Source: Paenibacillus sp. Soil522
GTDB lineage: Bacteria > Bacillota > Bacilli > Paenibacillales > Paenibacillaceae
NCBI RefSeq assembly: GCF_001428245.1
Contig: NZ_LMRV01000077.1
Coordinates: 58,829-122,828 of the forward strand
Direction of reading: 5' to 3'
Length of the DNA: 64,000 nt
Shown: positions 1 through 49,410 of the stretch, one piece after another
Numbering within the stretch: position 1 is the stretch's first letter
How the letters are laid out: the number at the start of each line of letters is the position of its first letter
Notes under the pieces: generated by a model
The model's input: only the letters and a program-made list of their open reading frames with translations
What the model was told of the DNA's origin: nothing
Database searches by the model: none
Made by a program: the position numbers and the translations under genes

Positions 1-45
1 AGTTGTCAGACGGCAGTGTAACGATAGAAAAACTGTCGATTGGAA

Positions 46-291
46 CCTCATCTGTCGAAATAGAGTAAATCCTTTTCTCTATTTCCTCAAAACTAACCCA
101 AACCGCATAATTAGAGAAAGTAACTTTCTCTAATGTCCACGTACCCCCGCAAACTGGCGCCTAACACGCCTCATCTGCCGAAATAGAGTAAATCCTTTTC
201 TCTATTTCCTCAGAACTAACCCAAACCGCATAATTAGAGAAAGTAACTTTCTCTAATGTCCACGTACCCCCGCAAACTGGCAGCTAACGCG
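46..291. repeat. Two tandem copies of a 123-bp hairpin repeat
   Basis: Copy 1 is about 46-168 and copy 2 about 169-291, nearly identical with a period of 123 bp. Each copy has two inverted repeats: AAATAGAG...CTCTATTT with a 10-nt loop, and TTAGAGAAAG-taa-CTTTCTCTAA, a perfect 10-bp stem. No T-run follows, so they are not ordinary terminators. The repeat sits just downstream of the minus-strand nuclease gene. The element is non-coding as far as I can see. Confidence 0.85.
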
Positions 292-300
292 CCACTAGCC

Positions 301-1059
301 TTACAACCGAAGCTTGACTCCAGCGCTTGTCAGTCGGTAGGAACGTATGCGTTGACCGCCAGAAGCTTGCTCTATTAATTTTAAATGAAGCAGACGACTT
401 AAGTTTTTACGAGCAGTAGGCGCACTAACCCAAAGCAGCTTCCGGGCATCCTTCGGACTGAAGGCTGCTCCGTTCACACGGCGCTGCGCCCATCGCAGAA
501 GTTCCCGCGCGGGTGAGGACAATTGCAGATAAAGCGCGTCTGTACGTCCAAGACCGTAAAATTTCCCTAGCAGCTGCTGGATAAACTGCTGGCATTGTCT
601 TGGTCTTTCCCGAAGGTCGTCATAGGAAAAGCGCACAACGATCCAATCGTCCAAGACGAGCTGGTTTTGCCGAAAGCGATCATCCGAAAATTTCCGCCGT
701 GATGCATTTTTTTGATGCGTCCCAAAGCCATCTATTTCGATGGAGATTCGAAAGGGAGGGCGAATATAAGTAAAGTCGAGAAACCGGCTGCCATCGCGAT
801 AATCATTCACCTCATACTCCGGATGCAAATATTCAAAGCTGCCCAGCACCTGCCACCAGATATCGATTGCAAAAAGCTGTTCGCTATGATCATCCCGCTC
901 TACAAGCCGACGTCTACGCTCACTTGTAGGCTCACGCAGCTCTGTATGCTTGAGTATCCATTCCCTATAGGCCCGTTCAGCCGTACCCAGTTTACCGGTT
1001 ACCCCAACATCCACTCCGGCCAACGCCATCCGATCCACCATCAGACATCCCGCTCCCAT
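301..1059 (-). CDS. DUF559-like (PD-(D/E)XK fold) nuclease with C-terminal winged helix, putative
   Basis: The 252-residue protein has a central segment (about residues 90-165) with FLDFTYIRPPF, SIEIDGFGTH and DDWIVVRFSYDDL. This pattern resembles DUF559/very-short-patch-repair-like nucleases, with the acidic residues of FLDF and EIDG as candidate metal ligands. The last 60 residues (KDARKLLWVSAPTARKNLSRLL) read like a winged helix. The start is uncertain: ATG at 1059, 1041 and 1029 are all in frame. The first 20 or so residues lie inside a 110-bp tandem duplication, so a second copy of the start region exists upstream but runs into a stop in another frame. No partner methyltransferase or restriction gene is nearby. 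The DNA target and role are unknown. Confidence 0.55.
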   Translation of the reverse strand: MGAGCLMVDRMALAGVDVGVTGKLGTAERAYREWILKHTELREPTSERRRRLVERDDHSEQLFAIDIWWQVLGSFEYLHPEYEVNDYRDGSRFLDFTYIRPPFRISIEIDGFGTHQKNASRRKFSDDRFRQNQLVLDDWIVVRFSYDDLRERPRQCQQFIQQLLGKFYGLGRTDALYLQLSSPARELLRWAQRRVNGAAFSPKDARKLLWVSAPTARKNLSRLLHLKLIEQASGGQRIRSYRLTSAGVKLRL

Positions 1060-1222
1060 CTCCTGAGATAAAAAAACGCTCGCTTCGAACGAATGTCCGA
1101 AGATTCACCAGCCCCAACATCCACGCCGGCCAACGCCATCCGATCCACCATCAGACATCCCGCTCCCATCTCCAATAAAAAAACACCGCTCCGCTTCGAA
1201 CAAATGTCCGAAGAAAGAGCGG
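1002..1222. repeat. 110-bp tandem duplication covering the start of the DUF559-like gene
   Basis: The segment starting CCCCAACATCCA at 1002 recurs at 1112 with few differences (period 110). It covers the ribosome binding site and first codons of the minus-strand nuclease gene plus part of the terminator hairpin of the upstream protease gene. Because 110 is not a multiple of three, the upstream copy cannot be read through into the gene. Confidence 0.85.
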
Positions 1223-1224
1223 TG
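1177..1224 (-). terminator. Rho-independent terminator after the SepM-like gene
   Basis: On the minus strand CACCGCTC (1224-1217) pairs with GAGCGGTG (1191-1184), with an inner CTTCG...CGAAG pairing, followed by seven Ts (1183-1177). It ends transcription of the protease gene at 1337-2380. A decayed copy of the inner hairpin is in the downstream duplicate. Confidence 0.8.
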
Positions 1225-1336
1225 TACTTCACCTCATACCATTGTAGTTGAGCAGCGAGCAGATGTCATCAGCCCAAACTAACCTTTTATGACATTAATG
1301 ATGTATCGGCTTTAATGTCAACGCGCTCAACTGTCT

Positions 1337-2380
1337 TTACGCTCCGAGCCGCTCCAAATAATTCATAGCTTCAGCAAGCGTATGAACGGGAACGATCGTA
1401 ACTTTATAGCCTCTTTTACGGGCCTCGTCCAAAATATCCTTTTCATTGCTGTCAGAAGCCTTCACATCCGCCGGACAAAAAAATATTTCTACGCCTGCAA
1501 GCTCGGCAGCAATGATCTTGTCGCGTATGCCGCCGATTTGTCCGACATTGCCGCCCGCGTCGATCGTTCCGGTGCCCGCGATAAACTTGCCGTGCGTCAG
1601 TTCGCCTTCAGTCAGCTGATCCAATATTTCCAGGGAAAACATGAGCCCTGCGGATGGTCCGCCGATTTCCGATTCCTTATATACCACACTTACCGGAGGC
1701 TTGATCGTATATTGATCCTCGCTTACAATTCCGATCCGCGGCACAGCTGCATCATCACCGTCATCACCATATAGTTCAACCGTGAGAGTGTGTCTTTCCT
1801 TACCGCGCAGCACGACCAGCTCCAGCATATCGCCAATCTTTTTGCTTTGTACGATTACGCTGGCCAGCTCGTTAATTCGCGTCACCGGCTTGCCCTCCGC
1901 CTCAACGATTACATCTCCCGGAAGAAGCATCCCAGCCGCCTTGGATTCCGCATATAGCGCCTGTACAAAAATGCCGGTATACGTCATTGGAATGGGCTGT
2001 CCAGCCGCTTCGAGCGATGCGACGACCGCGTTGTTTTGGGAGCTATTCATCATATGGTCGAGCAGGATTCCGTACTCGGCATCGGTTAGCGTGCCGCGGA
2101 CCTTTACGGATTTTCGAATTTCAGTGTCCTTGGCAAACAAGCCGTAAAGCAAGGTTAACGCATTATTTGCTTTTATAGACAACACGGTCGTAAGGTTGAA
2201 GCTGCCTATCTCGGAAGCGTGTCCGTTTTCTACCTTTACAAAGTCCGTCAGCTTCTCAATCGTACCAGGCTGATAAATGTAATAAGGCAAGGGGATCAAG
2301 GTCAGCAGCGCTAAAATAAGGATCAAAGAGAGCAGCGAAATTAGTCTTTTTTTATTGCTGGCGTTCGTATTTCTCGTCAT
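1337..2380 (-). CDS. SepM/YlbL-family PDZ-Lon serine protease
   Basis: This 347-residue membrane protease has one N-terminal membrane segment (about residues 12-34), a PDZ domain (about 130-205, with MLLPGDVIVEAEGKPV) and a Lon-type S16 protease domain. The Ser-Lys dyad is visible as S243 in GGPSAGLMFS and K288 in GGIRDKIIAA. The active site is expected outside the membrane. Relatives cleave peptide pheromones (SepM in streptococci) or the SOS division inhibitor YneA (YlbL in B. subtilis), and the substrate here cannot be told. GAGGAC precedes the ATG. The gene is monocistronic with its own terminator. Confidence 0.9.
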   Translation of the reverse strand: MTRNTNASNKKRLISLLSLILILALLTLIPLPYYIYQPGTIEKLTDFVKVENGHASEIGSFNLTTVLSIKANNALTLLYGLFAKDTEIRKSVKVRGTLTDAEYGILLDHMMNSSQNNAVVASLEAAGQPIPMTYTGIFVQALYAESKAAGMLLPGDVIVEAEGKPVTRINELASVIVQSKKIGDMLELVVLRGKERHTLTVELYGDDGDDAAVPRIGIVSEDQYTIKPPVSVVYKESEIGGPSAGLMFSLEILDQLTEGELTHGKFIAGTGTIDAGGNVGQIGGIRDKIIAAELAGVEIFFCPADVKASDSNEKDILDEARKRGYKVTIVPVHTLAEAMNYLERLGA

Positions 2381-2562
2381 GAAACAAGTCCTCTTTCTGT
2401 TTGGGGCGGTTTAGTATAAGATCATTTTAACAGAAGATGGTGAATTGTGAGTAAAAATTTGGAAGGTTATAATTATGAAGGGGCCGAATTCATTGTCAAA
2501 ATGGCAAAGTGCCGCTGCAGGTAAATGGGGAAATAAGTGTTTCGTATAGGAGCTGAGCATCA

Positions 2563-2946
2563 TTGATTCGAGTAGCTGCTGCAATCATTGAAAACGAGCA
2601 GGGATTATTGTTAATAGCAAGGCGTAGGCCGGAGAAGTCGCAGGGCGGGCTTTGGGAATTTCCTGGCGGGAAGCTGGAGGAAGGCGAGTCGCCTGAGGCT
2701 TGTCTGCGAAGAGAGCTAATGGAAGAGATGGGCATCGAGATCGCTGTAGAGAAGCGTTTTGGCGTGAATGAACACAGTTATGGCGCGATCCGTATCCAAT
2801 TGACCGCTTATGAAGCTAAGCTTGTTGCTGGAGACATTAAGTTGATCGATCATGATGAGTATAGATGGGCTCAAAAAGAGCGGTTAGCCGATTATTCATT
2901 TGCTCCAGCGGATATCAAGTTTGTTGCTATGCTCATGCAAGGTTGA
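2563..2946 (+). CDS. Nudix hydrolase, MutT-like (deoxy)nucleoside triphosphate pyrophosphohydrolase
   Basis: The 127-residue protein carries a complete Nudix box at about residues 35-57 (GGKLEEGESPEA...RRELMEEMGIE), the Mg-binding helix that hydrolyses nucleoside diphosphates linked to another moiety. WEFPGGK just before the box is typical of MutT enzymes that remove 8-oxo-dGTP, so a nucleotide-pool-cleaning role is likely. The start codon is TTG with AGGAG (2550-2554) a few bases upstream. The gene stands alone and an imperfect terminator hairpin follows. Confidence 0.88.
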   Translation: MIRVAAAIIENEQGLLLIARRRPEKSQGGLWEFPGGKLEEGESPEACLRRELMEEMGIEIAVEKRFGVNEHSYGAIRIQLTAYEAKLVAGDIKLIDHDEYRWAQKERLADYSFAPADIKFVAMLMQG

Positions 2947-2960
2947 GAAGGAGTAACAAG

Positions 2961-2999
2961 AAGCTGTCCCATTTGTAGATGACCTTGGGCGGCTTTTTG
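2961..2999 (+). terminator. Probable terminator after the Nudix gene
   Basis: AAGCTGTCCC and GGGCGGCTT form an imperfect stem around a loop of roughly 20 nt, followed by TTTT. There is one bulge and one G-U pair, so the call is moderate. Confidence 0.5.
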
Positions 3000-3095
3000 C
3001 TGCGCTGCGCGGGGTATAAAATCCGCGATAATCCATCGTCGTATCATGAAATTTTTTTGGATGCAGGTAAATTCTAGAAGGAGCGGTATCGAAGA

Positions 3096-3104
3096 TTGTC
3101 GAAA
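3096..3104 (+). promoter_or_regulatory. Spo0A-like box (TTGTCGAAA)
   Basis: TTGTCGAAA matches the known Spo0A-P binding consensus exactly and lies 47 bases before the start codon of the membrane histidine kinase. By position it could act near the promoter. It was found by eye only. Confidence 0.5.
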
Positions 3105-3151
3105 TATAGTAACGTAGAATGGTTTGTATTTTTGATATTTTGAGGTGTCCT

Positions 3152-5053
3152 ATGAAAGCTATACCTAAATTCGTAATCGTCCTTGTCATATCGTTATTTA
3201 TAGCCATTCCGTTTCTATCCACGCCTTCCTATGCCTTTTCGGATACGCTGACTACCGCGATTACAGAATGGGAAATGATGTGGGAGAAGGATTCCAGTAA
3301 TACGGTTCAGAATGTTATTTCCAACAATAAATCTGGTGAGTGGCATTCCTTCTCTTATGAAGATAAATTGCCTGTAAAACCGGCTAATGTTCATTCGGCA
3401 TGGCTCAGATTTCAGCTCCCTGCATTTGATTTAGCAAGGCCAGCGTTGTTAATAAGCAAGCTTACTGCCAAAGATGTCAAGATATTTATTGACAATAAAC
3501 TCATTTATGAATCTCATCGGAATTATCCGTATAACAAGAACGAGATTTTACTCTCATTAAACCCCAATGAATCCAAACAAATGGTATATATTCTTTTGCA
3601 TACGGATTCCGCCTGGTTAGGCTTGAAGAAACAAATTATTGTAGGTGAAAACCAGATTCTCAGTAAAGACTATCTGAAGAAGGATATTTTCGATGTTGTT
3701 ATTGGAGGAGCGCTTGTATTTGTTTCGCTGGCTATGTTTTTATGCTTCATTTTTTTGAACAAATCTTATTTAGTTGGTTTGAGTTCGCTTTGTATTTTTA
3801 TTTTTTCAATCGGAGTAATGATTCTCGCTTTAACCCCTTATTTACATACCGTATATAAGGACTATGGGCTGGTCATTTATTATATGTTCGATGTCGGTTC
3901 AAATCTATTGATACCTTCTATTTTTTTCTTTTTTGAAAAGATATTCGGTAGAGGACCTTTTGGACTTGTCTCCCGATTTAGAAAGCTCCAAGTCGTTGTT
4001 TCGACGATGTCTATTTTATGGCTGTTGGCTTCTTTTACTTCAGATAAAATCGGTAATCTGTATACAACAGCTACAATCTTTACTTTCGGCGGATCGATCA
4101 TTATAGGTAATAGCTTACTCATCATTTTCCTTGTTAAATATTGCTTGCAAAGAAATAAAGATGCAATTATTTTAACGACAGGATTTGGTATGTTTGCTGC
4201 AATTGGCGTCTCAGAAGTAATATGGTATTTTATTCAAGATATGAATTACGATCTGTTTTTTTGGAAATGGGGCATTCTTAGCTTTGTAGCATCGCTTATC
4301 ATCATATTGGCCAGAAGAATATTACAAAACTACGAACAGGTTGTAAAATACTCCAAACAGCTTGAGGTTTTTAATAATGAGCTTCAGCGGTCTGAAAAAA
4401 TGGAGATCATCAGCCAATTGGCTGCTTCGGTAGCTCACGAGGTACGCAATCCCTTGCAGGTTACAAGAGGTTTTCTTCAGCTCCTTCGTGAGAAAACGAC
4501 GAGTGATAAGGATAATAGCTTTATGGTGCTGGCGATAGATGAACTAGACCGGGCATCGGAAATTATTACAGACTTTTTAACGTTCGCTAAACCCCAGCTT
4601 GAGCAGACGACACTTCTGAATGTTGCGGAAGAGATTCAGAAGATTGAAGGAATACTGGCTCCGTTAGCGACTATGCAAGGCGGAATTATCAAGGTTGATT
4701 TAGCATCCGATTTATATGTACGCGGAAATTCATCTAAATTAAAGCAGGCGCTTATAAATATTATTAAGAACAGTATCGAAGCCTTAGATAAAGATGGGAT
4801 CATCCATATCCGAGCCTACATGGATGACTCCGGCCATGTAGTCATTTGCATAAAAGACAATGGTGAGGGTATGCACGAGGCTGATTTAAAAAGACTGGGT
4901 GAGCCGTATTATTCCAAGAAAACGAAAGGAACCGGCTTAGGATTAATGGTGACTTTCCGAATTATTGAAGTGATGCAGGGCAGAGTTGAGTTTATTAGTG
5001 ACAAAGGGGTGGGCACGGAGGCCATCATTCATATCCCTTCAGTGAATAAATAG
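3152..5053 (+). CDS. 7TM-type membrane sensor histidine kinase (sporulation-kinase-like)
   Basis: I chose the ATG at 3152, preceded by GAGGTG, over the in-frame ATG at 3119 because it begins directly with a signal peptide (MKAIPKF...). The protein is 633 residues: signal peptide to about residue 30, an extracytoplasmic domain to about 185 resembling 7TMR-DISM sensors, about seven membrane helices (185-395), a coiled linker, the H-box AHEVRNPLQ with phospho-acceptor H429, and a C-terminal HATPase domain (IIKNSIEAL, DNGEGM, GTGLGL). The kinase half resembles Bacillus KinB/KinC-type sporulation kinases. No response regulator is adjacent, as is usual for phosphorelay kinases. A Spo0A-like box lies upstream. 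The signal sensed is unknown. Confidence 0.85.
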   Translation: MKAIPKFVIVLVISLFIAIPFLSTPSYAFSDTLTTAITEWEMMWEKDSSNTVQNVISNNKSGEWHSFSYEDKLPVKPANVHSAWLRFQLPAFDLARPALLISKLTAKDVKIFIDNKLIYESHRNYPYNKNEILLSLNPNESKQMVYILLHTDSAWLGLKKQIIVGENQILSKDYLKKDIFDVVIGGALVFVSLAMFLCFIFLNKSYLVGLSSLCIFIFSIGVMILALTPYLHTVYKDYGLVIYYMFDVGSNLLIPSIFFFFEKIFGRGPFGLVSRFRKLQVVVSTMSILWLLASFTSDKIGNLYTTATIFTFGGSIIIGNSLLIIFLVKYCLQRNKDAIILTTGFGMFAAIGVSEVIWYFIQDMNYDLFFWKWGILSFVASLIIILARRILQNYEQVVKYSKQLEVFNNELQRSEKMEIISQLAASVAHEVRNPLQVTRGFLQLLREKTTSDKDNSFMVLAIDELDRASEIITDFLTFAKPQLEQTTLLNVAEEIQKIEGILAPLATMQGGIIKVDLASDLYVRGNSSKLKQALINIIKNSIEALDKDGIIHIRAYMDDSGHVVICIKDNGEGMHEADLKRLGEPYYSKKTKGTGLGLMVTFRIIEVMQGRVEFISDKGVGTEAIIHIPSVNK

Positions 5054-5092
5054 CGCTGGCCGCTCTAGAGGGAGCTGACCAGCGTTTTTTTT
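5054..5092 (+). terminator. Terminator after the histidine kinase
   Basis: CGCTGG(5054-5059)...CCAGCG(5079-5084), with inner CGCTC/GAGCTG pairing, followed by eight Ts. It separates this gene from the convergent peptide gene. Confidence 0.85.
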
Positions 5093-5098
5093 GTCATT

Positions 5099-5341
5099 TT
5101 ATTGCCATGCGGCTCCTTCTGAATTGTTCACGTTCGCAACCTCTTGAGGGCTCTGCGGAAGGACTAAATAATATTTATTGGCTGATTCTTCTAGTACTTC
5201 TACTTCGATTGTATCCGGTACATCAATGCCAAAAGCGTCTTTCACTGCTGCTTTAGGGTCTGCAATAAGCTTTTTCTTGAATTCGGCATCTTCCCATGCC
5301 TTTTGAATGATATGCTCTTGTAACGTTTGTTCTGCGGTCAC
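5099..5341 (-). CDS. NHLP-leader peptide with C-terminal Trp (putative RiPP or pheromone precursor)
   Basis: The start is the GTG at 5341, because AGGGTGATCA lies just upstream and the NHLP homology begins there; a longer frame to 5404 lacks support. The 80-residue peptide has a textbook nitrile-hydratase-like leader: QKAWEDAEFKKKLIADPKAA, FGIDVPDTIEVEVLEES, then YYLVLP. After the leader comes a tail of about 20 residues ending in SEGAAWQ, with Trp at the second-last position and no Gly-Gly cleavage motif. NHLP leaders normally feed peptides to modifying enzymes. The only candidate here is the isoprenoid-synthase-like gene 104 nt upstream on the same strand. There is no cyclodehydratase, lanthionine synthetase, radical SAM enzyme or peptidase-ABC exporter in the window near it. 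Confidence 0.8.
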   Translation of the reverse strand: MTAEQTLQEHIIQKAWEDAEFKKKLIADPKAAVKDAFGIDVPDTIEVEVLEESANKYYLVLPQSPQEVANVNNSEGAAWQ

Positions 5342-5395
5342 ATTGATCACCCTTCCGAATATGTATAAGTTTACCATACTCAGTTTAACATGGTC

Positions 5396-5404
5396 TTTCG
5401 ACAA
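5396..5404 (-). promoter_or_regulatory. Spo0A-like box upstream of the NHLP peptide gene
   Basis: The minus strand reads TTGTCGAAA, an exact match to the Spo0A consensus, 55 bases before the GTG start. It forms a pair with the box at 5426-5434, 30 bp away, which is about three helical turns. Confidence 0.5.
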
Positions 5405-5425
5405 TATCTATTTAAATTTACTAAT

Positions 5426-5434
5426 ATTCGACAA
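5426..5434 (-). promoter_or_regulatory. Second Spo0A-like box upstream of the NHLP peptide gene
   Basis: The minus strand reads TTGTCGAAT, one base off the TTGTCGAAA consensus, in the same orientation as the box at 5396-5404. It lies between the stop codon of the isoprenoid-enzyme gene and the peptide gene, which suggests the peptide may have its own regulated promoter. Confidence 0.45.
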
Positions 5435-5444
5435 TTAATAGATA

Positions 5445-6389
5445 CTATTGCACCTTCTTTGCTTCATAAGTAGACAAAAAGTACTCAAACCCGCCCTTAA
5501 GCAGCTGCTTTCTGTTTGTGTCTATCGTCTCAGTAACCTGGTTCAAATGATTTAGTAGAAAGGCGTGAAAGTCTAGTATCTCACTGGCTCCAGTATCCAT
5601 AGCCAGCAGCTTCCTATGATTGTCAAAAGCAAATTGCACATAGGGCTTCATGCATCCCCTAATATAGATCGCATTTTCAGCGTCTTTCTCAGTTAATGGC
5701 TCACCCGAGGCTCGTCCCGCAGCAATCATTGCCAGCAGGCCGTTATAGCTGCCTTCCGCCAAGTCTTCTTTCCAGTCCGCGTAGTCGTCAGCCATCTGAA
5801 GCGTCATCAGTACGAGATCGATGGCATGCTCAAGCTTATGTATGAATTCATCGCGTCCCGTTAACAGCAGCGCGCCTGTGCTGGCGATTTTGACGGGACC
5901 GGCTTTTCCTGCTGTGCGGATAGGCTCGTTAACAAAGTAATCGTCGCGGTCCTCATTCATTACGCTATCGGCCCATGTTGTCACATAACGGTGGTAGTAA
6001 CGCCAAAATGATGAATCTGATGGAAATAACTCGCGAAACACGCTGAACATTTCAAGCAGAAGCAGATTACCCAGTGCGAGCTGATCCTTCCATTTCGATG
6101 AAGGCGCACTGTCCATTACATCATCCTGAATAAAAAAATAGAGCATTCCATATACATTAGCTAATGCCAGGCGTTCACATTGCGAATCGCTTATCCCTGA
6201 CAGTTCCTTTATCCAAAAAGGGAGCAGGCTGCAAATATAGTCTTTGCCGCTCTCATGCTTCACCGGGTTGAATTTGTCTGCGTAGGCAAGGCCGACACTA
6301 TTCAGCGGCCCGGGAAAAGCCGCAATGCGATCTTCGGCCTCCTTGTAAACCTGCTCCAGCTGCTTTTTATAACGGGTATACCATTCCAT
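5445..6389 (-). CDS. Class I isoprenoid synthase-fold enzyme (prenyl synthase/prenyltransferase-like)
   Basis: The 314-residue, mostly helical protein carries two Asp-rich metal-binding motifs of class I isoprenoid enzymes: DDVMD at 89-93 (in FFIQDDVMDS) and DDYAD at 201-205 (in LQMADDYADWKEDL). This arrangement is shared by trans-prenyl diphosphate synthases, some terpene synthases and the ComQ peptide prenyltransferases. The length fits all three. The neighbour favours the last: directly downstream on the same strand is an NHLP-leader peptide with a penultimate Trp, the kind of residue ComQ prenylates in ComX. The start ATG has GGCGGAGG upstream. That it prenylates the peptide is inference. 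Making a free terpene, with the peptide unrelated, is the alternative. Confidence 0.75.
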   Translation of the reverse strand: MEWYTRYKKQLEQVYKEAEDRIAAFPGPLNSVGLAYADKFNPVKHESGKDYICSLLPFWIKELSGISDSQCERLALANVYGMLYFFIQDDVMDSAPSSKWKDQLALGNLLLLEMFSVFRELFPSDSSFWRYYHRYVTTWADSVMNEDRDDYFVNEPIRTAGKAGPVKIASTGALLLTGRDEFIHKLEHAIDLVLMTLQMADDYADWKEDLAEGSYNGLLAMIAAGRASGEPLTEKDAENAIYIRGCMKPYVQFAFDNHRKLLAMDTGASEILDFHAFLLNHLNQVTETIDTNRKQLLKGGFEYFLSTYEAKKVQ

Positions 6390-6757
6390 TGCTCCGCCTC
6401 CGCCATCATCAGAAAAGATTAAATGACAATACTAAATTACCTTTTGCAGCATATAAATTGTATACGAACGCTGTGAATCTTTTCTACTATATCATTTCAT
6501 AAACATGAAAATCTTAACATTTTTTTGAGCATTAGGGAAAAAGGGCGAACTACTTATTGAGTAAACAGAAGAAATCCAGTAAAATGGAGACAGATTAAGA
6601 TATTGAAAAGTTTGGTAGAGGCTTCTTTGTCACACTATTCTTACAAACTGGACTAAGGTCGGGGATAAACCTATTACCTGAGCAGGTTTAGAATTTAGTT
6701 CTCCTGCATTAAAGTTAATACCTAGATGAAAGTTCTTTAATGTGGAGGTAGTATGGC
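6390..6757. other. Intergenic region between divergent genes, with two inverted repeats
   Basis: This AT-rich stretch must hold promoters for both the leftward isoprenoid gene and the rightward amidase gene, but no promoter is convincing by eye. Two inverted repeats lie near the amidase gene: TAAACCT/AGGTTTA (6666-6690) and CATTAAAG/CTTTAATG (6707-6742). I see no coding sequence. Confidence 0.5.
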
Positions 6758-7327
6758 ATGAATAGAGATGCAGAAATTTATGTGCTCTTGACGAATACAG
6801 GGACTCTATTTTCGAAGACGATAAGATGGTATACGAAAAATATGTTAAATCATGCATCAATAGCTTTTGACAGCGATCTGAATGAGGTATACAGCTTTGG
6901 CAGAAAGAATCCGAGCAATCCATTTTTTGCGGGGTTTGTTAAGGAGGATGTGCGCGGTGAGTTTTTCGAGCATTCGACCTGCGCGCTGTACAGATGCACG
7001 ATCGACCATAGCGCCTATGTAAACATCAGGAATCAGATTCAATATATGGAGAAAAACCGGGATCAATACAAATACAATCTGCTTGGCATGCTTGGTATTA
7101 TGCTTAATATTGAGATGAAACGGGAATATGCTTATTTTTGCTCACAGTTTGTAGCCTCGGTGTTTGAGCAAAGCGGTGTGAATTTAGTCGATAAGCCGTC
7201 GTTGTTCGTAACGCCTGCCGATTTGGAAAAAACAGCATTGCTCGAGTTAGTATACCACGGCAGGCTGCACGCCTATACAGGCTGCCCAGAGGAGATTAAA
7301 GCGACAGGCACTTTCCGGACAGCTTAA
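6758..7327 (+). CDS. YiiX/NlpC-P60-like permuted papain-fold amidase or peptidase, putative
   Basis: The 189-residue protein has the order of a circularly permuted papain-like fold: an early His in the NHASIAFD strand (H32) and a later Cys at the start of a helix in YFCSQFVASVF (C128). This is the pattern of YiiX/YebB-like NlpC/P60 proteins. VLLTNTGTLFSKTIRWYTK at the N-terminus is also typical. There is no signal peptide, so a cytoplasmic location is likely. Some family members hydrolyse cell-wall peptides or lipids, but the substrate here is not evident. GGAGG precedes the ATG and a strong terminator follows, so it is transcribed alone. Confidence 0.7.
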   Translation: MNRDAEIYVLLTNTGTLFSKTIRWYTKNMLNHASIAFDSDLNEVYSFGRKNPSNPFFAGFVKEDVRGEFFEHSTCALYRCTIDHSAYVNIRNQIQYMEKNRDQYKYNLLGMLGIMLNIEMKREYAYFCSQFVASVFEQSGVNLVDKPSLFVTPADLEKTALLELVYHGRLHAYTGCPEEIKATGTFRTA

Positions 7328-7330
7328 AGA

Positions 7331-7362
7331 AGATCTCTCATGGAGAGATCTTTTTCTTTTTT
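7331..7362 (+). terminator. Terminator after the permuted amidase gene
   Basis: AGATCTCTC (7331-7339), loop ATG, GAGAGATCT (7343-7351), then a T-rich run to 7362: a perfect 9-bp stem. Confidence 0.9.
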
Positions 7363-7409
7363 AAAGAAGCAGTTAGCTCGTATATTACATCTTGGAGGCT
7401 GGTTATAAA

Positions 7410-8492
7410 ATGTCCATCATCAGTTTTGGTATTGTTGGCGGCGGCTGGCGCGCGGAGTTTTACATACGAATCGCGAAAGCGCTGCCGGAGCGGTTTCGCA
7501 TACATACGATGCTCGTTCGGGACGAGGAGAAGGGGCGGGCCATTGAGGCAAAATGGGGCATTCGGACCGTTCGCAATTTACAGCAATTTACGGCAGAGGC
7601 AGTGAACTTTAGCTTTGCAGTCGTATCGGTGCCGCGAACAGCAGCGCCGGATATGATCCGTGATTTATCTGCGCGGCGCATTCCCGTTCTTGCGGAGACA
7701 CCGCCAGCTGCCGATCTGGCTGCGCTTACCGCGCTCTGCGAATCACTGCCAAAGGATGCTAAGGTGCAGGTGGCGGAGCAGTATTTGTATCAGCCGATGC
7801 ATGCCGCCCGTATTCAAGTCGCCCGCTCCGGCAAGCTGGGAGAGGTGAATCATGTACAGGTTTCGGCCGCCCATGATTATCATGGCATAAGCTTAATTAG
7901 ACAGCTGCTTGGCGTCGGCTTCGAGGAGGCTGTCATTAGGGGCGAGCAGTTTGAATCAACGATTATGCAGGGCCCAAGCAGACAAGGGGATCCGCTTGAA
8001 GAACGAATGGTTCAGTCGGTGCAGCGGATCGCAACGCTTCGGTTTGGCGACAAGCTGGCCGTATATGATTTTACGGGCGATCAGTATTTCTCCTGGATCC
8101 GGCGCAGCCGCATGCTTGTAAGAGGCACGAAAGGCGAGCTTATGAACTCAAAAGTGAACTACTTGAAGGACTACGCAACGCCTGTTTACACGGAGCTTCG
8201 CAGAGTGGATACGGGGCATCACGGCAATTTGGAGGGCTACTATCATCGCGGCATTACCGCGGACGGGGAATGGCTGTACCGGAATCCTGTCGCTCCGGCA
8301 AGGCTCAGCGATGATGAAATCGCGATAGCTGCATGCTTGCTGCGCATGGGCGAGTACGCCACTGGAAGCGGAGCCTCCTTCTATAGCTTGGCCGAGGCTG
8401 CCCAGGATCATTATTTGGCGCTTATGATGGGACAAGCAATCACGTCAGGCCAGTCGGTAAAGACGGAAAAACAAGTTTGGATGAACCTATAA
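7410..8492 (+). CDS. Gfo/Idh/MocA-family oxidoreductase
   Basis: The N-terminus has a Rossmann dinucleotide-binding motif (FGIVGGGWRAEFY) and a family-typical strand ending in VPRTAAPDM. The catalytic EKP motif of the family is not clear: AETPPAADL occupies its place, so the usual Lys appears to be missing. The C-terminal half is the alpha/beta substrate domain. I chose the ATG at 7410 with GGAGG at 7394, rather than the TTG at 7392. About 360 residues fits the family, which oxidises or reduces sugars and inositols with NAD(P). The substrate is unknown, but the gene stands before a sugar-sensing and uptake block. Confidence 0.8.
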   Translation: MSIISFGIVGGGWRAEFYIRIAKALPERFRIHTMLVRDEEKGRAIEAKWGIRTVRNLQQFTAEAVNFSFAVVSVPRTAAPDMIRDLSARRIPVLAETPPAADLAALTALCESLPKDAKVQVAEQYLYQPMHAARIQVARSGKLGEVNHVQVSAAHDYHGISLIRQLLGVGFEEAVIRGEQFESTIMQGPSRQGDPLEERMVQSVQRIATLRFGDKLAVYDFTGDQYFSWIRRSRMLVRGTKGELMNSKVNYLKDYATPVYTELRRVDTGHHGNLEGYYHRGITADGEWLYRNPVAPARLSDDEIAIAACLLRMGEYATGSGASFYSLAEAAQDHYLALMMGQAITSGQSVKTEKQVWMNL

Positions 8493-8532
8493 ATGTAGAG
8501 TAATAATATAGATGCATGTATGTTAAAATAAT

Positions 8533-8568
8533 CGCAGCTCCCGTAAGCGGGGGCAGCGTTTTATTTTT
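8533..8568 (+). terminator. Terminator after the oxidoreductase gene
   Basis: CGCAGCTCCCG pairs with CGGGGGCAGCG around TAAG (imperfect, one G-U pair and a bulge), followed by TTTTATTTTTTT. It lies just before the binding-protein gene. Confidence 0.65.
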
Positions 8569-8590
8569 TTATGAAAGGGGTTACACCTGC

Positions 8591-9604
8591 ATGAAAAAAA
8601 TACTGCTCATTTATGGAATCCTCATCGTAACCTTCATGCTGTTCGTCTTTTATAACCAAAACATCGGTTACCGCAATGCGGATCCGAATCCATGGGAGCA
8701 GATGGATGAAGGGCTGCGCGGCACCATTGACGAGAAATATGTGATGGTCACCTTTCTCTCCGGAATCGAGTATTGGAAAACGGCGATTAAAGGGTTCGAG
8801 GATGGCGCACAGGCGCTAAACGTATCGGTCGAGTATCGCGGTGCGACGCAGTATGATGTGAACGAGCAAGTAACCGTTCTTGAGCAGGTAATCGCCAAAA
8901 AACCGGCGGGCATCGCACTGTCGGTGATGAATGCGAATGCGTTGACCGGCTCCATCAATAAAGCAGTCGAAGCAGGCATTCCGGTCGTGCTGTTCGATGC
9001 AGGCGCGGACAAGAGCAAGGCGTATTCCTTTCTTGCGACTAACAATTATGATGCCGGGGTTACGGCGGCGCATAAAATGGCCGAGCTCATTGGCAATAAA
9101 GGAAAGATCGCTGTCGTAACGCTGCCTAACCAATTGAATCATCAGGAACGGACGGTTGGGTTCCAGGAGACGATTTTTAAACAATATCCGGAAATAGAAG
9201 TGGTCGCGGTTAAAGACGGCAAGGGAGATCAGCTTGTGTCCGGGCAGATGGCGGCCGAGGTGATGAAGCAGCATCCCGATTTGCAGGGCTTTTTCGTGAC
9301 CGAGGCGAATGGCGGTGTAGGCGTTGGGCAGCTGTTTGAGCATAACCACAAAGTAAAGATCATCAGCTTCGATACGGACAAAGGTACGCTGGATATGGTG
9401 AAAGAGGGTACAATCTCAGCTACCCTAGCTCAAGGAACGTGGAATATGGGCTACTGGTCCCTGCAGTTTTTATTCCATCTCCATCACAATATGACGGGGC
9501 AAAGCGGCACTGCAATTATGGGCGGATCACCTCTGCCGAAATTTGTGGATACCGGCATAACCGTCGTCACGCAAAACAATGTCGAAAGCTTCTATGCGAA
9601 ATAA
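8591..9604 (+). CDS. Membrane-anchored sugar-binding protein (XylFII-like sensor)
   Basis: The start is ATG 8591 with GAAAGGGG upstream; an upstream in-frame start (8516) would put extra residues before the membrane anchor. The 337-residue protein has an N-terminal membrane helix (residues 4-20) without a lipobox Cys, then a type I periplasmic-binding fold: VMVTFLSGIEYWK, RGATQYDVNEQVTVLEQVI, PVVLFDAG, TNNYDAGVTAAHKMAE, ISFDTDKGTLDMV. It is followed immediately by a YesM-type kinase and a YesN-type regulator and then an ABC transporter with its own binding protein. That order matches the XylFII-LytS-YesN sensing systems described in clostridia, in which the anchored binding protein presents the sugar to the kinase. 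Confidence 0.8.
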   Translation: MKKILLIYGILIVTFMLFVFYNQNIGYRNADPNPWEQMDEGLRGTIDEKYVMVTFLSGIEYWKTAIKGFEDGAQALNVSVEYRGATQYDVNEQVTVLEQVIAKKPAGIALSVMNANALTGSINKAVEAGIPVVLFDAGADKSKAYSFLATNNYDAGVTAAHKMAELIGNKGKIAVVTLPNQLNHQERTVGFQETIFKQYPEIEVVAVKDGKGDQLVSGQMAAEVMKQHPDLQGFFVTEANGGVGVGQLFEHNHKVKIISFDTDKGTLDMVKEGTISATLAQGTWNMGYWSLQFLFHLHHNMTGQSGTAIMGGSPLPKFVDTGITVVTQNNVESFYAK

Positions 9605-9637
9605 CGGATAGCGTATGTTGAAATGAGAGGATGCCAC

Positions 9638-11506
9638 TTGAAACAGCTGAAATTTTTCCAATTAAATAACTTGCCGATACGTTACAAGCTGATTATCATG
9701 TTTTTGCTTATTTCCATATTGCCCTCAATAGGGCTCGGTCTGCTCATCGATTATACGGTCGAGCGGATTATTGGCAAGCAGGTCAATGAAAATACGCTTC
9801 AGCTTATCGGAAAAGTGAATAAATCGATGGAATTTTACGTCAGTAATATGCAAAATATGACGTATCTCATTGCGTTTGACCCTGGCGTGAAGCAATTTTT
9901 GAAAGGAAATGACAGCGGAGTCTCCGAGGAGGAACGGGAGAACAGCGTCTACAGCATGCATAAATATTTGCAAGGTTTCACTACGCTGTACTCGGAAGTT
10001 GCCGGCGTCATGGTGGTCAATAGTAAAGGCGATTACATAAGCAACGAGCTGTATGCACGCAGTCCGCAGCCTCTGACGGAGGAAAGCTGGTTTAAGGAGG
10101 CGGTTGCGGGTAAGGGAATTTATAAAATTCTCGGCAAGCCGGGCCATCGCAATATTACGAGCCATGCAAATTACAAGGAGGACGAAGTGATTTCCGTTGT
10201 CCGCGCGATTCTTAATCCGGATACGCAGCAGGCAGAGGGCGTTGTGTTAATTGATTTAAAGCTCAGAGTCATCGCAGAGGCTGTAAAGGATGTAAGATTG
10301 GGGAAAACGGGTTATTTGCTTGTCATCGATCATGACGGGGGACATATTTATTCACCTGCTAAACCTATTATTCGCGATATACCGAAACAATGGGTGATGG
10401 AAGGCAGTTCGGGCAATTTCTCGCAAATCGTGGATGGTGAAAAATTGCAAATTATTTACCGGAAATCAACGTTCACCGATTGGACGACGGTTGGCGTGTT
10501 TTCATCCAAGGAATCGGCGCTTGAAGTGCAGGAAATCCGTTTCTATGTCATCACTTTCGTATTCTTTCTCTGCTTGCTCAACATCGCAGCTGCCATTTAT
10601 TTGGCGCATTCGATGTCTAGGCCGATCAATCAGCTGATGTCGTTTATGCAAAAAGCGGAGAGCGGCGATCTGACGATCCGGTATTGGGGCGAGCGCGAGG
10701 ATGAAGTCGGCAAGCTTGGCCGGAGCTTTAATACGATGCTGGCCCAAATGAATAAGCTTCTCAGCTTAACCGAGCTTCAGGGACGGCAGAAACGGGAGGC
10801 TGAGCTGCGCAGCCTGCAAGCACATATTAAGCCCCATTTTTTATACAATACGCTTGATACGATTCATTGGATGGCGCGGAAAAAAGGAGCCGAAGACGTC
10901 GCGGAGGTCGTGCAATCCCTTTCGAAGCTGTTCCGGATCGGTCTCAGCAAAGGCAACGACATCATTCCGCTTACTGATGAAATCGAGCATATTCAAAGCT
11001 ATCTCGTTATTCAGAAGACAAGGTACAAGGATAAGCTGAATTACACGATGGATATCAGTCCGGATGTTCAGCAGCTGTACGTAATCAAGCTGGTACTTCA
11101 GCCTATTGTAGAAAACGCGATTTATCACGGGATTAAGGAACGGAGAGGTCCGGGTCATATTGCGATAAAAGCTTATGTGGACGAAGGCTCGCTGCTGTTG
11201 TCTGTCAGTGATGACGGCGTCGGAATGCAGCCCGAGAAGCTGGAGCAGCTGCGGAGGCTGCTGGACAGCACGGTAGCGACGCCGAAGCTTTCGGAGCATG
11301 ATCTTAAGGAGCTTAGGGAACGGGAGCATCAAGATGTGCTCCGTTCCAAAAAGCTGCAGGAGCAGCAAGGCTACGGCGTTCTAAACGTGCAGGCCAGAAT
11401 ACAGCTGACGTTTGGCGAACGATACGGCATGAGCATAGAGAGCACGCTCGGCGAGGGCACGACTGTAACGATTGCAATGCCGATTTTGCGGGATATTTAT
11501 GGGTAG
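9638..11506 (+). CDS. YesM-family sensor histidine kinase
   Basis: I chose the TTG at 9638 because AGAGG lies 7 nt before it; the ATG at 9623 has no ribosome binding site. The 622-residue protein has a membrane helix (about 17-40), an extracytoplasmic Cache-like domain (40-290), a second membrane helix (about 300-325), a HAMP domain (SMSRPINQLMSFM), the His_kinase domain with KPHFLYNTLD (H400), and a HATPase domain (IVENAIYHGIKE, DDGVGM). It pairs with the AraC-type regulator 15 nt downstream and probably senses sugar through the anchored binding protein upstream. Confidence 0.9.
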   Translation: MKQLKFFQLNNLPIRYKLIIMFLLISILPSIGLGLLIDYTVERIIGKQVNENTLQLIGKVNKSMEFYVSNMQNMTYLIAFDPGVKQFLKGNDSGVSEEERENSVYSMHKYLQGFTTLYSEVAGVMVVNSKGDYISNELYARSPQPLTEESWFKEAVAGKGIYKILGKPGHRNITSHANYKEDEVISVVRAILNPDTQQAEGVVLIDLKLRVIAEAVKDVRLGKTGYLLVIDHDGGHIYSPAKPIIRDIPKQWVMEGSSGNFSQIVDGEKLQIIYRKSTFTDWTTVGVFSSKESALEVQEIRFYVITFVFFLCLLNIAAAIYLAHSMSRPINQLMSFMQKAESGDLTIRYWGEREDEVGKLGRSFNTMLAQMNKLLSLTELQGRQKREAELRSLQAHIKPHFLYNTLDTIHWMARKKGAEDVAEVVQSLSKLFRIGLSKGNDIIPLTDEIEHIQSYLVIQKTRYKDKLNYTMDISPDVQQLYVIKLVLQPIVENAIYHGIKERRGPGHIAIKAYVDEGSLLLSVSDDGVGMQPEKLEQLRRLLDSTVATPKLSEHDLKELREREHQDVLRSKKLQEQQGYGVLNVQARIQLTFGERYGMSIESTLGEGTTVTIAMPILRDIYG

Positions 11507-11521
11507 AGAGGCGGTTTACAA

Positions 11522-12742
11522 TTGGATGGCCTATTGAAAGTATTAATTGCTGATGATGAGCCGATTATACGGGAAGGAGTACGGGATTCGGTTGATTGGG
11601 CTTCGCTTGGCATGCGCGTGTGCGCGGAGGCGGAGGACGGCGAAGAAGCGCTGGAGCTGGCGCTTCTGCATCAAATTCACGTTGCGCTGGTCGATTTGAA
11701 TATGCCGATCATGAACGGCATTGCGCTCATGAAGGAGCTCCGGCAGAAGCTGCCGCAGTGCCGCATTATTATCATTACGGGCCACGATGAATTCGCTTAT
11801 GCGCAAGAGGCGATTCGGCTTAGTGTGGATGATTATATTTTGAAGCCGGCTGGCGGGGATCAGCTGCGGCAAGTGCTTACCCGGATAAGACAGGATCTGG
11901 AGACGGCTCAGAAGCAGGATGAGCATTTGCAGCAGGCCTCTAAACAAATCGTAAAGAACTTTCCGCTTATGCGGGAACGGTTCTGTCTCGAGTGGATTGA
12001 AGGAACGCTGACGGAGGACGAGCTGCTGGAGCAGCTGCAATTTCTGCGGCTTCCCGCTCAAACACCCGCCCTGTTAGGCGTAATCCGTTGGCCCGAGCTA
12101 AATGCGAGCATGCCGCTGAGAAAGGAAAACGACCGGCAGCTCTTTTTATTTGCGATTGAGAACATCGTGTCAGAAATGCTTGAGGACTATGAAAAAGTAT
12201 TGTTTCGCGACCATGCCGGCTTAATTGTCATGATTCTTTGGGGAACGGTGCCGGAAACGCATATTTCAGATATGCAGCATGCGGTTCAGGCCTACTTGAA
12301 AATATCGGTACAGGTGTTTACCCAATCGGTTGAGGAAGGCCTGTTGTCTGTTCCTGCCGTCTACCGGCAATGCAAGGCGGGTATTTACAAAGAGACGGTC
12401 ATGTCTCCGCTCGTACGCCGGGCACAGGACTATATTCGCGAGACGTACATGGATGCGGATATGAGTCTCGAAGCATTCGCGAACTTAATGCAGGTATCGC
12501 CCGTTTATATGAGCAGGATCATTAAGCAAGAGCTGGGCACTTCATTTGTCAGTCTTGTGACGCAGCTTCGCATGAGCAAAGCGATCCAACTGCTTAATGC
12601 GACCGATTTGCCGATCAATGAAATCGCCGAGAAGGTCGGCTACGATACGCAGCATTACTTCAGCACCGCTTTTAAGAAGGCGGTCGGCGTCTCACCTAAT
12701 CAATACCGTAAAGGCGCAGCCTTCCAGGATGACGAGCGATAA
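11522..12742 (+). CDS. YesN-type response regulator with AraC DNA-binding domain
   Basis: The 406-residue protein starts at TTG (11522), with GAGAGGCGG upstream. The receiver domain has the acidic pair in IADDEP, phospho-acceptor D58 in LVDLNMP and K at ILKPAG. The C-terminus (about 305-400) holds two helix-turn-helix units of an AraC domain (DMSLEAFANLMQVSPVYMS and LPINEIAEKVGYDTQHYFS). It is cotranscribed with the YesM-type kinase. The likely target is the promoter of the ABC transporter operon 190 bp downstream (inference). Confidence 0.9.
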   Translation: MDGLLKVLIADDEPIIREGVRDSVDWASLGMRVCAEAEDGEEALELALLHQIHVALVDLNMPIMNGIALMKELRQKLPQCRIIIITGHDEFAYAQEAIRLSVDDYILKPAGGDQLRQVLTRIRQDLETAQKQDEHLQQASKQIVKNFPLMRERFCLEWIEGTLTEDELLEQLQFLRLPAQTPALLGVIRWPELNASMPLRKENDRQLFLFAIENIVSEMLEDYEKVLFRDHAGLIVMILWGTVPETHISDMQHAVQAYLKISVQVFTQSVEEGLLSVPAVYRQCKAGIYKETVMSPLVRRAQDYIRETYMDADMSLEAFANLMQVSPVYMSRIIKQELGTSFVSLVTQLRMSKAIQLLNATDLPINEIAEKVGYDTQHYFSTAFKKAVGVSPNQYRKGAAFQDDER

Positions 12743-12767
12743 ATGTAGAACAAAACCAGAAATTTAT

Positions 12768-12808
12768 ATGCCCTGTCGGTGCCGTATCGCGCTGATAGGG
12801 CATTTTTT
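12768..12808 (+). terminator. Terminator after the response regulator gene
   Basis: ATGCCCT (12768-12774) pairs with AGGGCAT (12797-12803), with further inner pairing and then TTTTTT. It separates the sensing genes from the transporter operon. Confidence 0.75.
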
Positions 12809-12897
12809 AATAACTCGAAGCAGGTTTGATTTTTATAAAAAAGGTAGCTTTATTGCAAAGACGATAGCCAGCCCCCGAATGTATATTGATTAAGCAG

Positions 12898-12911
12898 AAA
12901 CAAACTTGTTT
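12898..12911. promoter_or_regulatory. Small palindrome upstream of the transporter operon
   Basis: AAACAA-AC-TTGTTT is a perfect 14-bp palindrome, 24 bp before the binding-protein start codon. It could be an operator or part of the 5' leader. Low confidence. Confidence 0.3.
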
Positions 12912-12934
12912 AGAGACGAAAGGGGACGGCACAC

Positions 12935-14011
12935 ATGAAAAAAGGGCTGGTTTTACTTGTTGTAACGGCAATTGTATTCGTACTTTCAGCATGCGGAGCA
13001 TCAAATAGCGGAGGCAGCGGCGACAGCGGCTACGTAGGCATCTCGATGCCAACAAAATCATCCGAGCGGTGGGTAGGCGACGGAGCGAACATGGTGAAGG
13101 AGTTCGAAGGGCTCGGTTACAAGACAGACCTTCAGTACGCGGAGGACGTTATTGAAAACCAGGTATCCCAAATTGAAAATATGATTACGAAAGGCGTCGA
13201 TATTCTCGTTATTGCGCCGATCGACGGCGAGTCGCTTAGTGACGTGCTTGGCAAAGCGAACAAAGAAGGCATTGAGGTTATCGCTTATGACCGTTTGATT
13301 AAAAAAACGGAGCATGTCAGCTACTATGCGACGTTCGACAACTTTAAAGTAGGCGTGCAGCAGGCTTCCTATATTGAAGAAAAGCTTGGCCTTAAGGACG
13401 GCAAGGGCCCGTTCAACATCGAGCTGTTCGCAGGCTCGCCTGACGATAACAACGCTTACTTCTTCTTCGACGGAGCGATGTCCATTCTTAAGCCTTACAT
13501 CGATAGCGGCAAGCTTGTCGTTCGGAGTAAACAAATAACGATGGATCAAGTCGCAACGCTCAGATGGGACGGCGCGCTTGCTCAATCCCGTATGGATAAC
13601 CTGATGAGCGCAAACTACGCAAACGAGAAAGTACACGCGGTATTGTCGCCATATGACGGCATCAGCATCGGTATTTTGTCCTCTTTGAAAGGGGTTGGCT
13701 ACGGTTCGGATAGCAATCCGCTTCCAGTAGTAACCGGTCAAGACGCGGAGCTTGCTTCCGTTAAATCGATCATAACTGACGAGCAAACGCAAACGGTATT
13801 TAAAGATACTCGTGAGCTTGCGAAAAAAGCAGTAGCGATGGCGGACAGCATTTTGAAAGGCACTGAAGTAGAAGTGAATAACACAGAAACGTACGATAAC
13901 GGCGTGAAGGTTGTCCCTTCGTTCCTGCTTGAGCCTGTTTCGGTCGACAAATCGAATTACAAGACAGCACTCATTGACACGGGTTATTACACCGAAGACC
14001 AACTTAAATAA
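12935..14011 (+). CDS. chvE: ChvE-type multiple-monosaccharide ABC transporter binding lipoprotein
   Basis: This 358-residue lipoprotein has a signal peptide with lipobox LSAC (Cys about residue 20) and a sugar-binding type I fold. [69 protein letters not shown] and the closing YYTEDQL are all characteristic of the ChvE group, which binds aldoses such as galactose, arabinose, glucose and xylose. The following genes encode the matching ATPase and permease (GguA, GguB). A hairpin after the stop may keep binding-protein mRNA more abundant than the rest of the operon. AAAGGGGACGG precedes the ATG. Confidence 0.88.
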
Positions 14012-14034
14012 TTCGTAATAGAAAAGGTGCTCCT

Positions 14035-14078
14035 ACGATTTAGTGATGGTTGCCCAGACTGTCGCTAAATCGTTTTTA
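14035..14078 (+). terminator. Intra-operon attenuating hairpin between binding protein and ATPase genes
   Basis: ACGATTTAG (14035-14043) pairs with CTAAATCGT (14065-14073), followed by TTTTATT. Partial terminators at this place are common in ABC operons and favour extra binding protein. Confidence 0.75.
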
Positions 14079-14103
14079 TTAACACTAAGGGCGTGATCAT
14101 GAT

Positions 14104-15636: not shown

Positions 15637-15641
15637 GACAG

Positions 15642-48135: not shown

Positions 48136-48182
48136 CGATTTCATAGTATAATAAAATGATTATGATTGTCGGAGGATCGATT

Positions 48183-49239: not shown

Positions 49240-49410
49240 ATGTTAAAAGAAACGATTCGTCAATTGGTAAGCAGCACAGAAAAAATGTCCATGACCATGG
49301 GTGGTCAAATGCAGCTAGCAGGTGTTTCCGCAGCAGAACAAAAAGCTCTTCTTGGTGAGCTAAAGCAAAAAAACGAGAAAAATAGCGGTTACGCTTATAT
49401 GTGGAGCTAA
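49240..49410 (+). CDS. comX: ComX-like pheromone precursor
   Basis: The 56-codon gene begins at ATG 49240, with CGGAGGAGTTTGA before it. The peptide has a basic N-terminus (MLKETIRQLV), a middle resembling ComX leaders, and the tail NSGYAYMWS with one Trp at position 55, second-last. ComX pheromones are cut from such tails and carry a prenyl group on their single Trp. The place between comQ and comP settles the call. Sequence identity to known ComX is low, as expected for pherotype divergence. The exact cleavage site cannot be read. Confidence 0.88.
   Translation: MLKETIRQLVSSTEKMSMTMGGQMQLAGVSAAEQKALLGELKQKNEKNSGYAYMWS

Follow-up and report, generated by a model that had tools for sequence, protein, structure and literature searches.

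The window, a stretch of 64,000 nucleotides from Paenibacillus sp. Soil522, harbours a compact unit of three genes. On the minus strand, the ORF at 5445-6389 encodes a putative PalQ-like Trp prenyltransferase of 314 aa, predicted to have a trans-isoprenyl diphosphate synthase (trans-IDS) fold, with the motifs DDVMD at residues 89-93 and DDYAD at 201-205 and a glutamine at position 198. The gene of a PalX-like NHLP precursor peptide (5099-5341) follows 103 bases downstream on the same strand. Its frame is open from a TTG at 5404; the GTG at 5341 sits behind the sequence GGAAGG and is the likely start codon, giving a precursor of 80 aa. The peptide scores 77.7 bits against the NHLP leader model TIGR03793, well above the curated cut-off of 50.9, and matches the NHase_alpha/NHLP models of Pfam and NCBIfam, the ComX model PF05952 not being among them. 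It ends in NVNNSEGAAWQ, the last residues of a variable tail of 18 residues (5102-5155, minus strand) in which the codon of Trp79, the penultimate residue and predicted prenylation site, occupies 5105-5107.

The third gene, at 3119-5053 on the plus strand, encodes a PalP-like orphan sensor histidine kinase with a hydrophobic, multi-pass N-terminal half followed, according to Pfam, by HisKA (PF00512) and HATPase_c. It converges on the peptide gene, whose stop codon lies 45 bases from its end. An inverted repeat (CGCTGG/CCAGCG) followed by a T-run was read by eye in this gap (5054-5098) and may be the terminator of the kinase transcript; the promoter and terminator scan added nothing and did not list the repeat, whose loop is longer than the limit of the scan. 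A previous sequence-only reading of this DNA had described the isoprenoid synthase-fold gene with its two motifs and the same-strand NHLP peptide ending in AAWQ, and both descriptions hold. It had paired the enzyme with the peptide, and this pairing stands, but the convergent kinase had been overlooked.

As that reading had noted, no RiPP-type exporter or protease was seen close to the pair among the ORFs listed for positions 1-16000, apart from a papain-like gene. The leader domain is that of the NHLP RiPP precursors, from which the peptide differs in having no GG cleavage site and in that none of the genes around the unit stood out as a LanM, YcaO or NHLM gene. In the Soil522 genome as a whole, none of the 75 scored matches to the NHLM transporter model was above its cut-off. 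The papain-like gene (6758-7327, plus strand), of YaeF/YiiX-like fold according to weak model matches, adjoins the enzyme gene within the clade of the window. We rejected it as the maturation protease: it was near the unit in only three of 100 loci (L111-L210), all with the window's genus code and one of them (L210) from the same genome as L007, and it does not accompany the unit into other genera. Among the window neighbours tested, the kinase alone stays with the pair across genera.

Relation of the enzyme to PalQ and ComQ

Sequence searches placed the enzyme in no established family. Neither Pfam nor NCBIfam gave a family above cut-off, and no terpene or polyprenyl synthase family of Pfam matched above its gathering score; three of 25 members of the enzyme family matched DUF5685 weakly, no other family being listed at E 0.01. 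A PHROGs search returned nothing useful, and PDB sequences gave no match to the single enzyme or to a profile of 25 homologues. The AlphaFold model is all-helical (pLDDT 89.2, pTM 0.85), and its Foldseek matches in the PDB are trans-isoprenyl diphosphate synthases with TM scores up to 0.69, of which the first alone had E <= 0.001; the Trp prenyltransferase Ord1 ranked 25th. Judging from the model, the enzyme has the trans-IDS-like all-alpha isoprenoid synthase fold, in agreement with the sequence-only reading.

The closest characterised system is a three-gene cluster of P. alvei comprising the kinase PalP, the NHLP precursor PalX and the prenyltransferase PalQ, the last originally annotated as a terpene synthase, and described as 'conserved across various Paenibacillus' (Miyata, Ito, Fujinami 2023, PMC10853753). 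In vitro, PalQ transfers C5, C10 or C15 prenyl groups onto PalX, with shifts of +68, +136 and +204 Da; the site is the indole C3 of the C-terminal Trp and a pyrroloindole ring results. The NHLP domain of PalX aids the reaction without being essential, and the core peptide, cut at T72/D73, was detected in P. alvei lysate (PMC10853753). The sequence-only reading had proposed prenylation of the tail Trp and a mass-shift test of it, and had known of no characterised example. PalQ/PalX is one, so that Trp prenylation by this enzyme family is published and the test has in effect already been done on an orthologue (PMC10853753). Within the open-licence PMC literature, PalQ is treated only in that paper and in a 2026 review (PMC13290415), and no product, expression or phenotype is given there for the Soil522 locus. 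The terpene-synthase literature was uninformative for the locus. As far as their accessible texts go, PMC12715784 and PMC12715929 have no bearing on it, nor has PMC7829367 beyond reporting an NHLP precursor in Paenibacillus strains, with no link to a prenyltransferase drawn.

PalQ itself was represented in our comparisons by the homologue from genome G532 (L174). We infer that this genome belongs to P. alvei or to a near relative because its enzyme carries K39, D89, D93, Q197, D200 and D204 at the exact published PalQ positions and because 72 residues of its precursor precede DNVRRF, as in the published T72/D73 cut and core start. A degenerate pattern of the published PalX core had no match in 19 genomes of G532's genus. 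Aligned end to end over 313 positions, the window enzyme shares 41.5% identity with this protein, and D89, D93, Q198, D201, D202 and D205 (window numbering) are present in 120/120 aligned homologues. Compared in silico, therefore, with the FARM, SARM and Gln residues all in place, the window enzyme is by its sequence an orthologue of PalQ. In six genomes (G640, G617, G639, G619, G632 and G646) the enzyme matches cross one in-frame stop; these are possibly decaying copies or assembly errors.

The two systems share the 80-aa NHLP precursor, the same catalytic residues, a kinase as third gene and a conserved tail Trp. They differ in the place of that Trp, which is the last residue of PalX (FFW) but is followed by one residue in the window peptide (AAWQ). 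This matters since PalQ refuses residues after Trp: addition of Ala abolished its activity (PMC10853753), and the review repeats the rejection of C-terminal extensions, adding that activity is low when the Trp is internal and has Gly neighbours (PMC13290415). Because of the loss with Ala, the window peptide may escape modification in its present form. The P domain of ChrPC and Ord1 resemble the window enzyme in fold class and in having a Gln directly ahead of the second Asp motif, and differ in that ChrPC, which also carries a cyclase domain, acts on an internal Trp and Ord1 on free Trp; the accessible text of the review mentions no NHLP leader for either (PMC13290415).

The sequence-only reading had reasoned from ComQ, and kinship at the sequence level failed to appear. 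By hhalign, a profile of 120 enzymes matched a ComQ profile with a probability of 8.3% over 29 columns, in an alignment that is not co-linear and brings the second Asp motif onto the first; the ComQ profile was made from the window's own ComQ-like protein and 16 ComQ-like ORFs beside ComX matches, including once more that of the window. In BLAST, the enzyme met the window's ComQ-like protein at E 5.5. We therefore rejected ComQ kinship, as well as a ComX-type precursor, the peptide being without a PF05952 match, and a ComP-type kinase (HisKA_3 with a LuxR-type ComA), since the kinase has HisKA and no adjoining receiver ORF. The unit resembles ComQ-ComX-ComP-ComA of Bacillus in that a prenyl-synthase-fold enzyme would prenylate a Trp near, not at, the C-terminus of a peptide, with an adjoining sensor kinase. 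It differs in the absence of detectable kinship between enzyme profiles, in leader, kinase class and gene order, and in having no response regulator beside the kinase. From these comparisons, it would work like ComQX without being a member of that family, with fold and chemistry in common.

Spread of the unit and the tail tryptophan

In a survey of 394 Paenibacillaceae genomes, one per species, we found the enzyme in 326 and an NHLP match in 337; 11 genomes had an NHLP match without the enzyme and 57 had neither. Matches above the TIGR03793 cut-off occurred in 329 genomes, comprising 326/326 of those with the enzyme versus 3/68 of those without it. The pairing is far beyond chance, and the finding that would have told against the sequence-only reading, homologues mostly lacking the peptide, did not appear. 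In a sample of 299 genomes of the class Bacilli, the enzyme was found in 26, all Paenibacillaceae; one member of the family (G076) was listed without it, and it occurred in 0/272 of the others.

Gene order was followed in 125 loci (the window, L001-L024 and L111-L210, with L007/L210 and L024/L195 being the same genomes counted twice). The order enzyme, peptide or peptides, convergent kinase was kept in 109, and a kinase with the same N-terminal half was present in 121. Among the 16 deviating loci, the kinase lies between enzyme and peptide in five (one of them cut by the end of the extracted sequence) and only before the enzyme in three; three have peptide and kinase without a nearby enzyme, one has the enzyme beyond the kinase, three have a lone enzyme and one reaches a contig end. 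The lone enzymes have a peptide-kinase pair elsewhere on the same contig, about 33 kb off in L007/L210 (tail GAMWI) and about 17 kb off in L204 (tail NSMW), where a second NHLP match is also present. Where the enzyme has moved, the kinase remains with the peptide. Some loci are expanded: L187 (G571, 2759-7218) has one enzyme, then five peptide genes in a row and then one kinase, four of the peptides having related tails (RKYTWV, RKFVWI, RKYNWL and RKYVWF) and one a different tail (PFIWT). Tandem PalP-type kinases stand beside one peptide in L152, L155-L161 and L163-L166 (g2) and in L001 and L011, and the second kinase of the last two is 47-49% identical to the window kinase in the sensor half and 77-78% in the kinase half.

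The same loci yielded 134 complete peptide ORFs, or 132 after merging identical tails; ORFs running off a contig (L006) and repeat genomes (L025-L026, L052-L110) were omitted, and the 100 loci L111-L210 are a manual selection among the best matches listed, drawn from 12 genus codes, in which the weaker-scoring groups g4, g132 and much of g3 are thin or missing. Trp followed by zero to three residues closes 131 of the 132 distinct peptides: it is the last residue in 83 (W+0), and has one residue after it in 40 (W+1), two in seven (W+2) and three in one (W+3). The sole exception is L174, where the tail frame is altered; the gene there (5919-6356) encodes a P. alvei-like PalX with a tail frame unlike the published intact one. 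Over the 131 peptides, positions -1 to -12 before Trp show an entropy of 3.06-3.67 bits, so that the tail is free and Trp fixed, as the sequence-only reading had anticipated. In the 11 family genomes without the enzyme, Trp was in the last four residues in 0/24 NHLP matches (19 distinct ORFs), a mixed control in which only five of the 24 are above the TIGR03793 cut-off and the L259 ORF is off the peptide model (E 2.6). Several of these matches presumably resemble true nitrile hydratase alpha subunits rather than peptides. The ORFs of L256, L257, L265, L270 and L273 (G550, G399), of about 206-280 aa with an NHLP-like match and endings such as ITRDSMIG, come from such enzyme-less genomes and are what we take to be true nitrile hydratase alpha subunits.

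We then mapped the label 'residue(s) after Trp' (W+) on the tree of 120 enzymes, with 114 rows assigned. It required five changes against a mean of 30.1 after shuffling, and the non-terminal Trp is therefore tied to certain enzyme clades. The window's clade (SH-aLRT 99) has 26 rows, of which 22 are W+, none is W+0 and four, one of them mixed, are unlabelled. The other W+ enzymes are eight of the ten g5 rows, the group of L112, L121, L187 and L203, and L143. Residue 44 is Lys or Arg in 26/35 W+ rows and in 16/78 W+0 rows; having been picked among some 314 columns, and with four independent pairs only (sign test median p 0.25), a basic residue 44 behind the switch in Trp position is no more than a lead. 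K39 does not follow the class and was discarded as its determinant.

The kinase as candidate receptor

PalP is named once in the PalQ paper, the main text of which gives it no function (PMC10853753). The catalytic half of the window kinase resembles AtoS and the sporulation kinase KinD, well under their cut-offs, and 104 of 143 kinase copies carry the H-box HExRNPLxxxxGFLQL, which we assume to be similar to that of phosphorelay kinases. In none of 121 loci does a receiver-domain ORF lie less than 1.5 kb from the kinase, within the limits of the sequence extracted for each locus.

Covariation was assessed in 114 convergent peptide-kinase pairs with an enzyme, taking as tail the seven residues before Trp. 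Partial correlations are given for all pairs, pairs of the same genus code, pairs of different codes and pairs with a kinase distance under 0.35, in this order. Tail and sensor half, controlled for kinase half, enzyme and leader, gave 0.32, 0.47, 0.26 and 0.35; shuffling tails within genus codes gave a null mean of 0.08 (sd 0.04; p 0.001, the floor of the test). The values were -0.01, -0.03, 0.01 and -0.12 for tail and enzyme, 0.08, -0.06, 0.11 and -0.01 for tail and kinase half, 0.15, 0.31, -0.03 and 0.31 for leader and enzyme, and 0.28, 0.23, 0.14 and 0.17 for leader and sensor. By genus code, tail and sensor gave 0.22 in g1, 0.29 in g2, 0.35 in g120, 0.46 in g131, 0.36 in g5 and -0.04 in g3 (10 pairs). 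Part of the tail-sensor signal may be kinship, given the leader-sensor values of 0.14-0.28, a leader-enzyme covariation that appears inside genus codes (0.31) and vanishes across them (-0.03), the null result in g3 and permutations that shuffle within genus codes and do not follow the tree. Three genomes represented among 119 pairs (L003, L004 and L009) have two peptide-kinase modules each, with strongly divergent tails and sensors (sensor distance 0.55-0.61, kinase distance 0.27-0.31). The covariation is the pattern expected if the kinase were the docking site of the tail and, less clearly, the enzyme that of the leader.

Most probably, then, the Soil522 locus is a prenylated-peptide signalling unit of the PalQ-PalX-PalP type. 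We propose that the 80-aa precursor would bind through its NHLP leader to the enzyme, which would ionise a prenyl diphosphate, most likely geranyl or farnesyl, at the DDxxD motif and transfer the prenyl group forward onto the indole C3 of Trp79, after which the backbone nitrogen would close the pyrroloindole ring. The prenylated tail would be cut off and leave the cell, and the convergent membrane kinase would sense it; having no adjoining response regulator, the kinase may feed a shared phosphorelay. Since the acceptor Trp is penultimate in the window's clade, its enzyme would have to tolerate at least one residue after Trp, unlike PalQ of P. alvei. The wider reading is more tentative, and we lean towards it without granting it quite an even chance: a near-core pheromone system of the Paenibacillaceae in which the orphan kinase, perhaps through the Spo0F phosphorelay, reads the prenylated tail, tails and sensors co-diverge into pherotypes, and the acceptor Trp has shifted, in the window's clade at least, from the last to the penultimate residue, with an enzyme that takes an internal Trp as PalQ does not. 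What was already known is the PalQ-PalX-PalP system, characterised in 2023; new are its near-core spread, the variant in Trp position and the evidence for the kinase as receptor.

It is rather unlikely, although the published enzymology speaks for it, that the PalQ rule holds throughout and a carboxypeptidase first trims the residues after Trp (here Q80), so that only a peptide with terminal Trp is prenylated. PalQ rejects C-terminal extensions in both the paper and the review (PMC10853753, PMC13290415), 83/132 distinct peptides end exactly in Trp, and the trailing residues are few and variable. The W+ class follows enzyme clades with five changes, however, as expected if the enzymes differ, whereas trimming would not require a link to enzyme clades. 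In P. luteus (L003), a single enzyme match is accompanied by two peptides, ending in VPMW (W+0) and AAWQ (W+1). Over prior trimming we favour enzymes of the W+ clades that would tolerate Trp in more than one place. A peptide that is mainly antimicrobial or surface-active, with a kinase controlling its production or immunity to it, is unlikely. Antimicrobial peptides prenylated with PalQ do gain activity (PMC13290415), and some loci have several peptides per enzyme, such as L187 with five; but the kinase alone follows the pair across genera among the neighbours tested, is found in 121/125 loci and covaries with the tail in its sensor half, and a single enzyme copy in most species of the family looks more regulatory than warfare.

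Two further explanations were weighed and set aside. That the enzyme yields a free terpene or small isoprenoid, the peptide being a bystander NHLP protein, would suit the fold and motifs of isoprenoid synthases and the first annotation of PalQ; it is very improbable in view of the NHLP peptide in all 326 enzyme genomes, a tail Trp seen in the peptides of enzyme loci but in none of the 24 matches from enzyme-less genomes, the Trp-recognition Gln of PalQ in 120/120 homologues and an orthologue that is a proven peptide prenyltransferase. A divergent ComQXP system is hardly credible: the logic of a prenyl-synthase-fold enzyme, a Trp peptide and a sensor kinase is the same, but against it stand the hhalign result (8.3%, 29 columns, not co-linear), a leader that is NHLP and not PF05952, HisKA instead of HisKA_3, a convergent kinase with no response regulator beside it, and a separate comQXPA-like locus in the same window.

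If the kinase does read the prenylated tail, signalling by a lipidated peptide would be common to most species of the Paenibacillaceae; the accessible texts of PMC10853753 and PMC13290415 treat the PalQ system as biosynthesis and as a source of enzyme tools. Among the naturally occurring clades W+1 to W+3 there are enzymes at hand that may prenylate a non-terminal Trp, beyond the range of PalQ, and would show how positional choice evolved within the trans-IDS fold.

The comQXPA-like locus lies on the plus strand of the same contig at 48156-52468, at a distance of about 43 kb. It consists of a ComQ-like gene (48156-49112, PF00348), a ComX-like gene (49240-49410; PF05952 at 27 bits, cut-off 25) whose product ends in AYMWS with a penultimate Trp, a ComP-like gene (49444-51840) with PDZ and HisKA_3 domains, and a ComA-like gene (51818-52468). 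A 2014 census mentions a locus of the comQXPA type in P. curdlanolyticus (PMC4008528). Judging from sequence, one genome would hold two Trp-prenylation systems with no detectable kinship between their enzymes.
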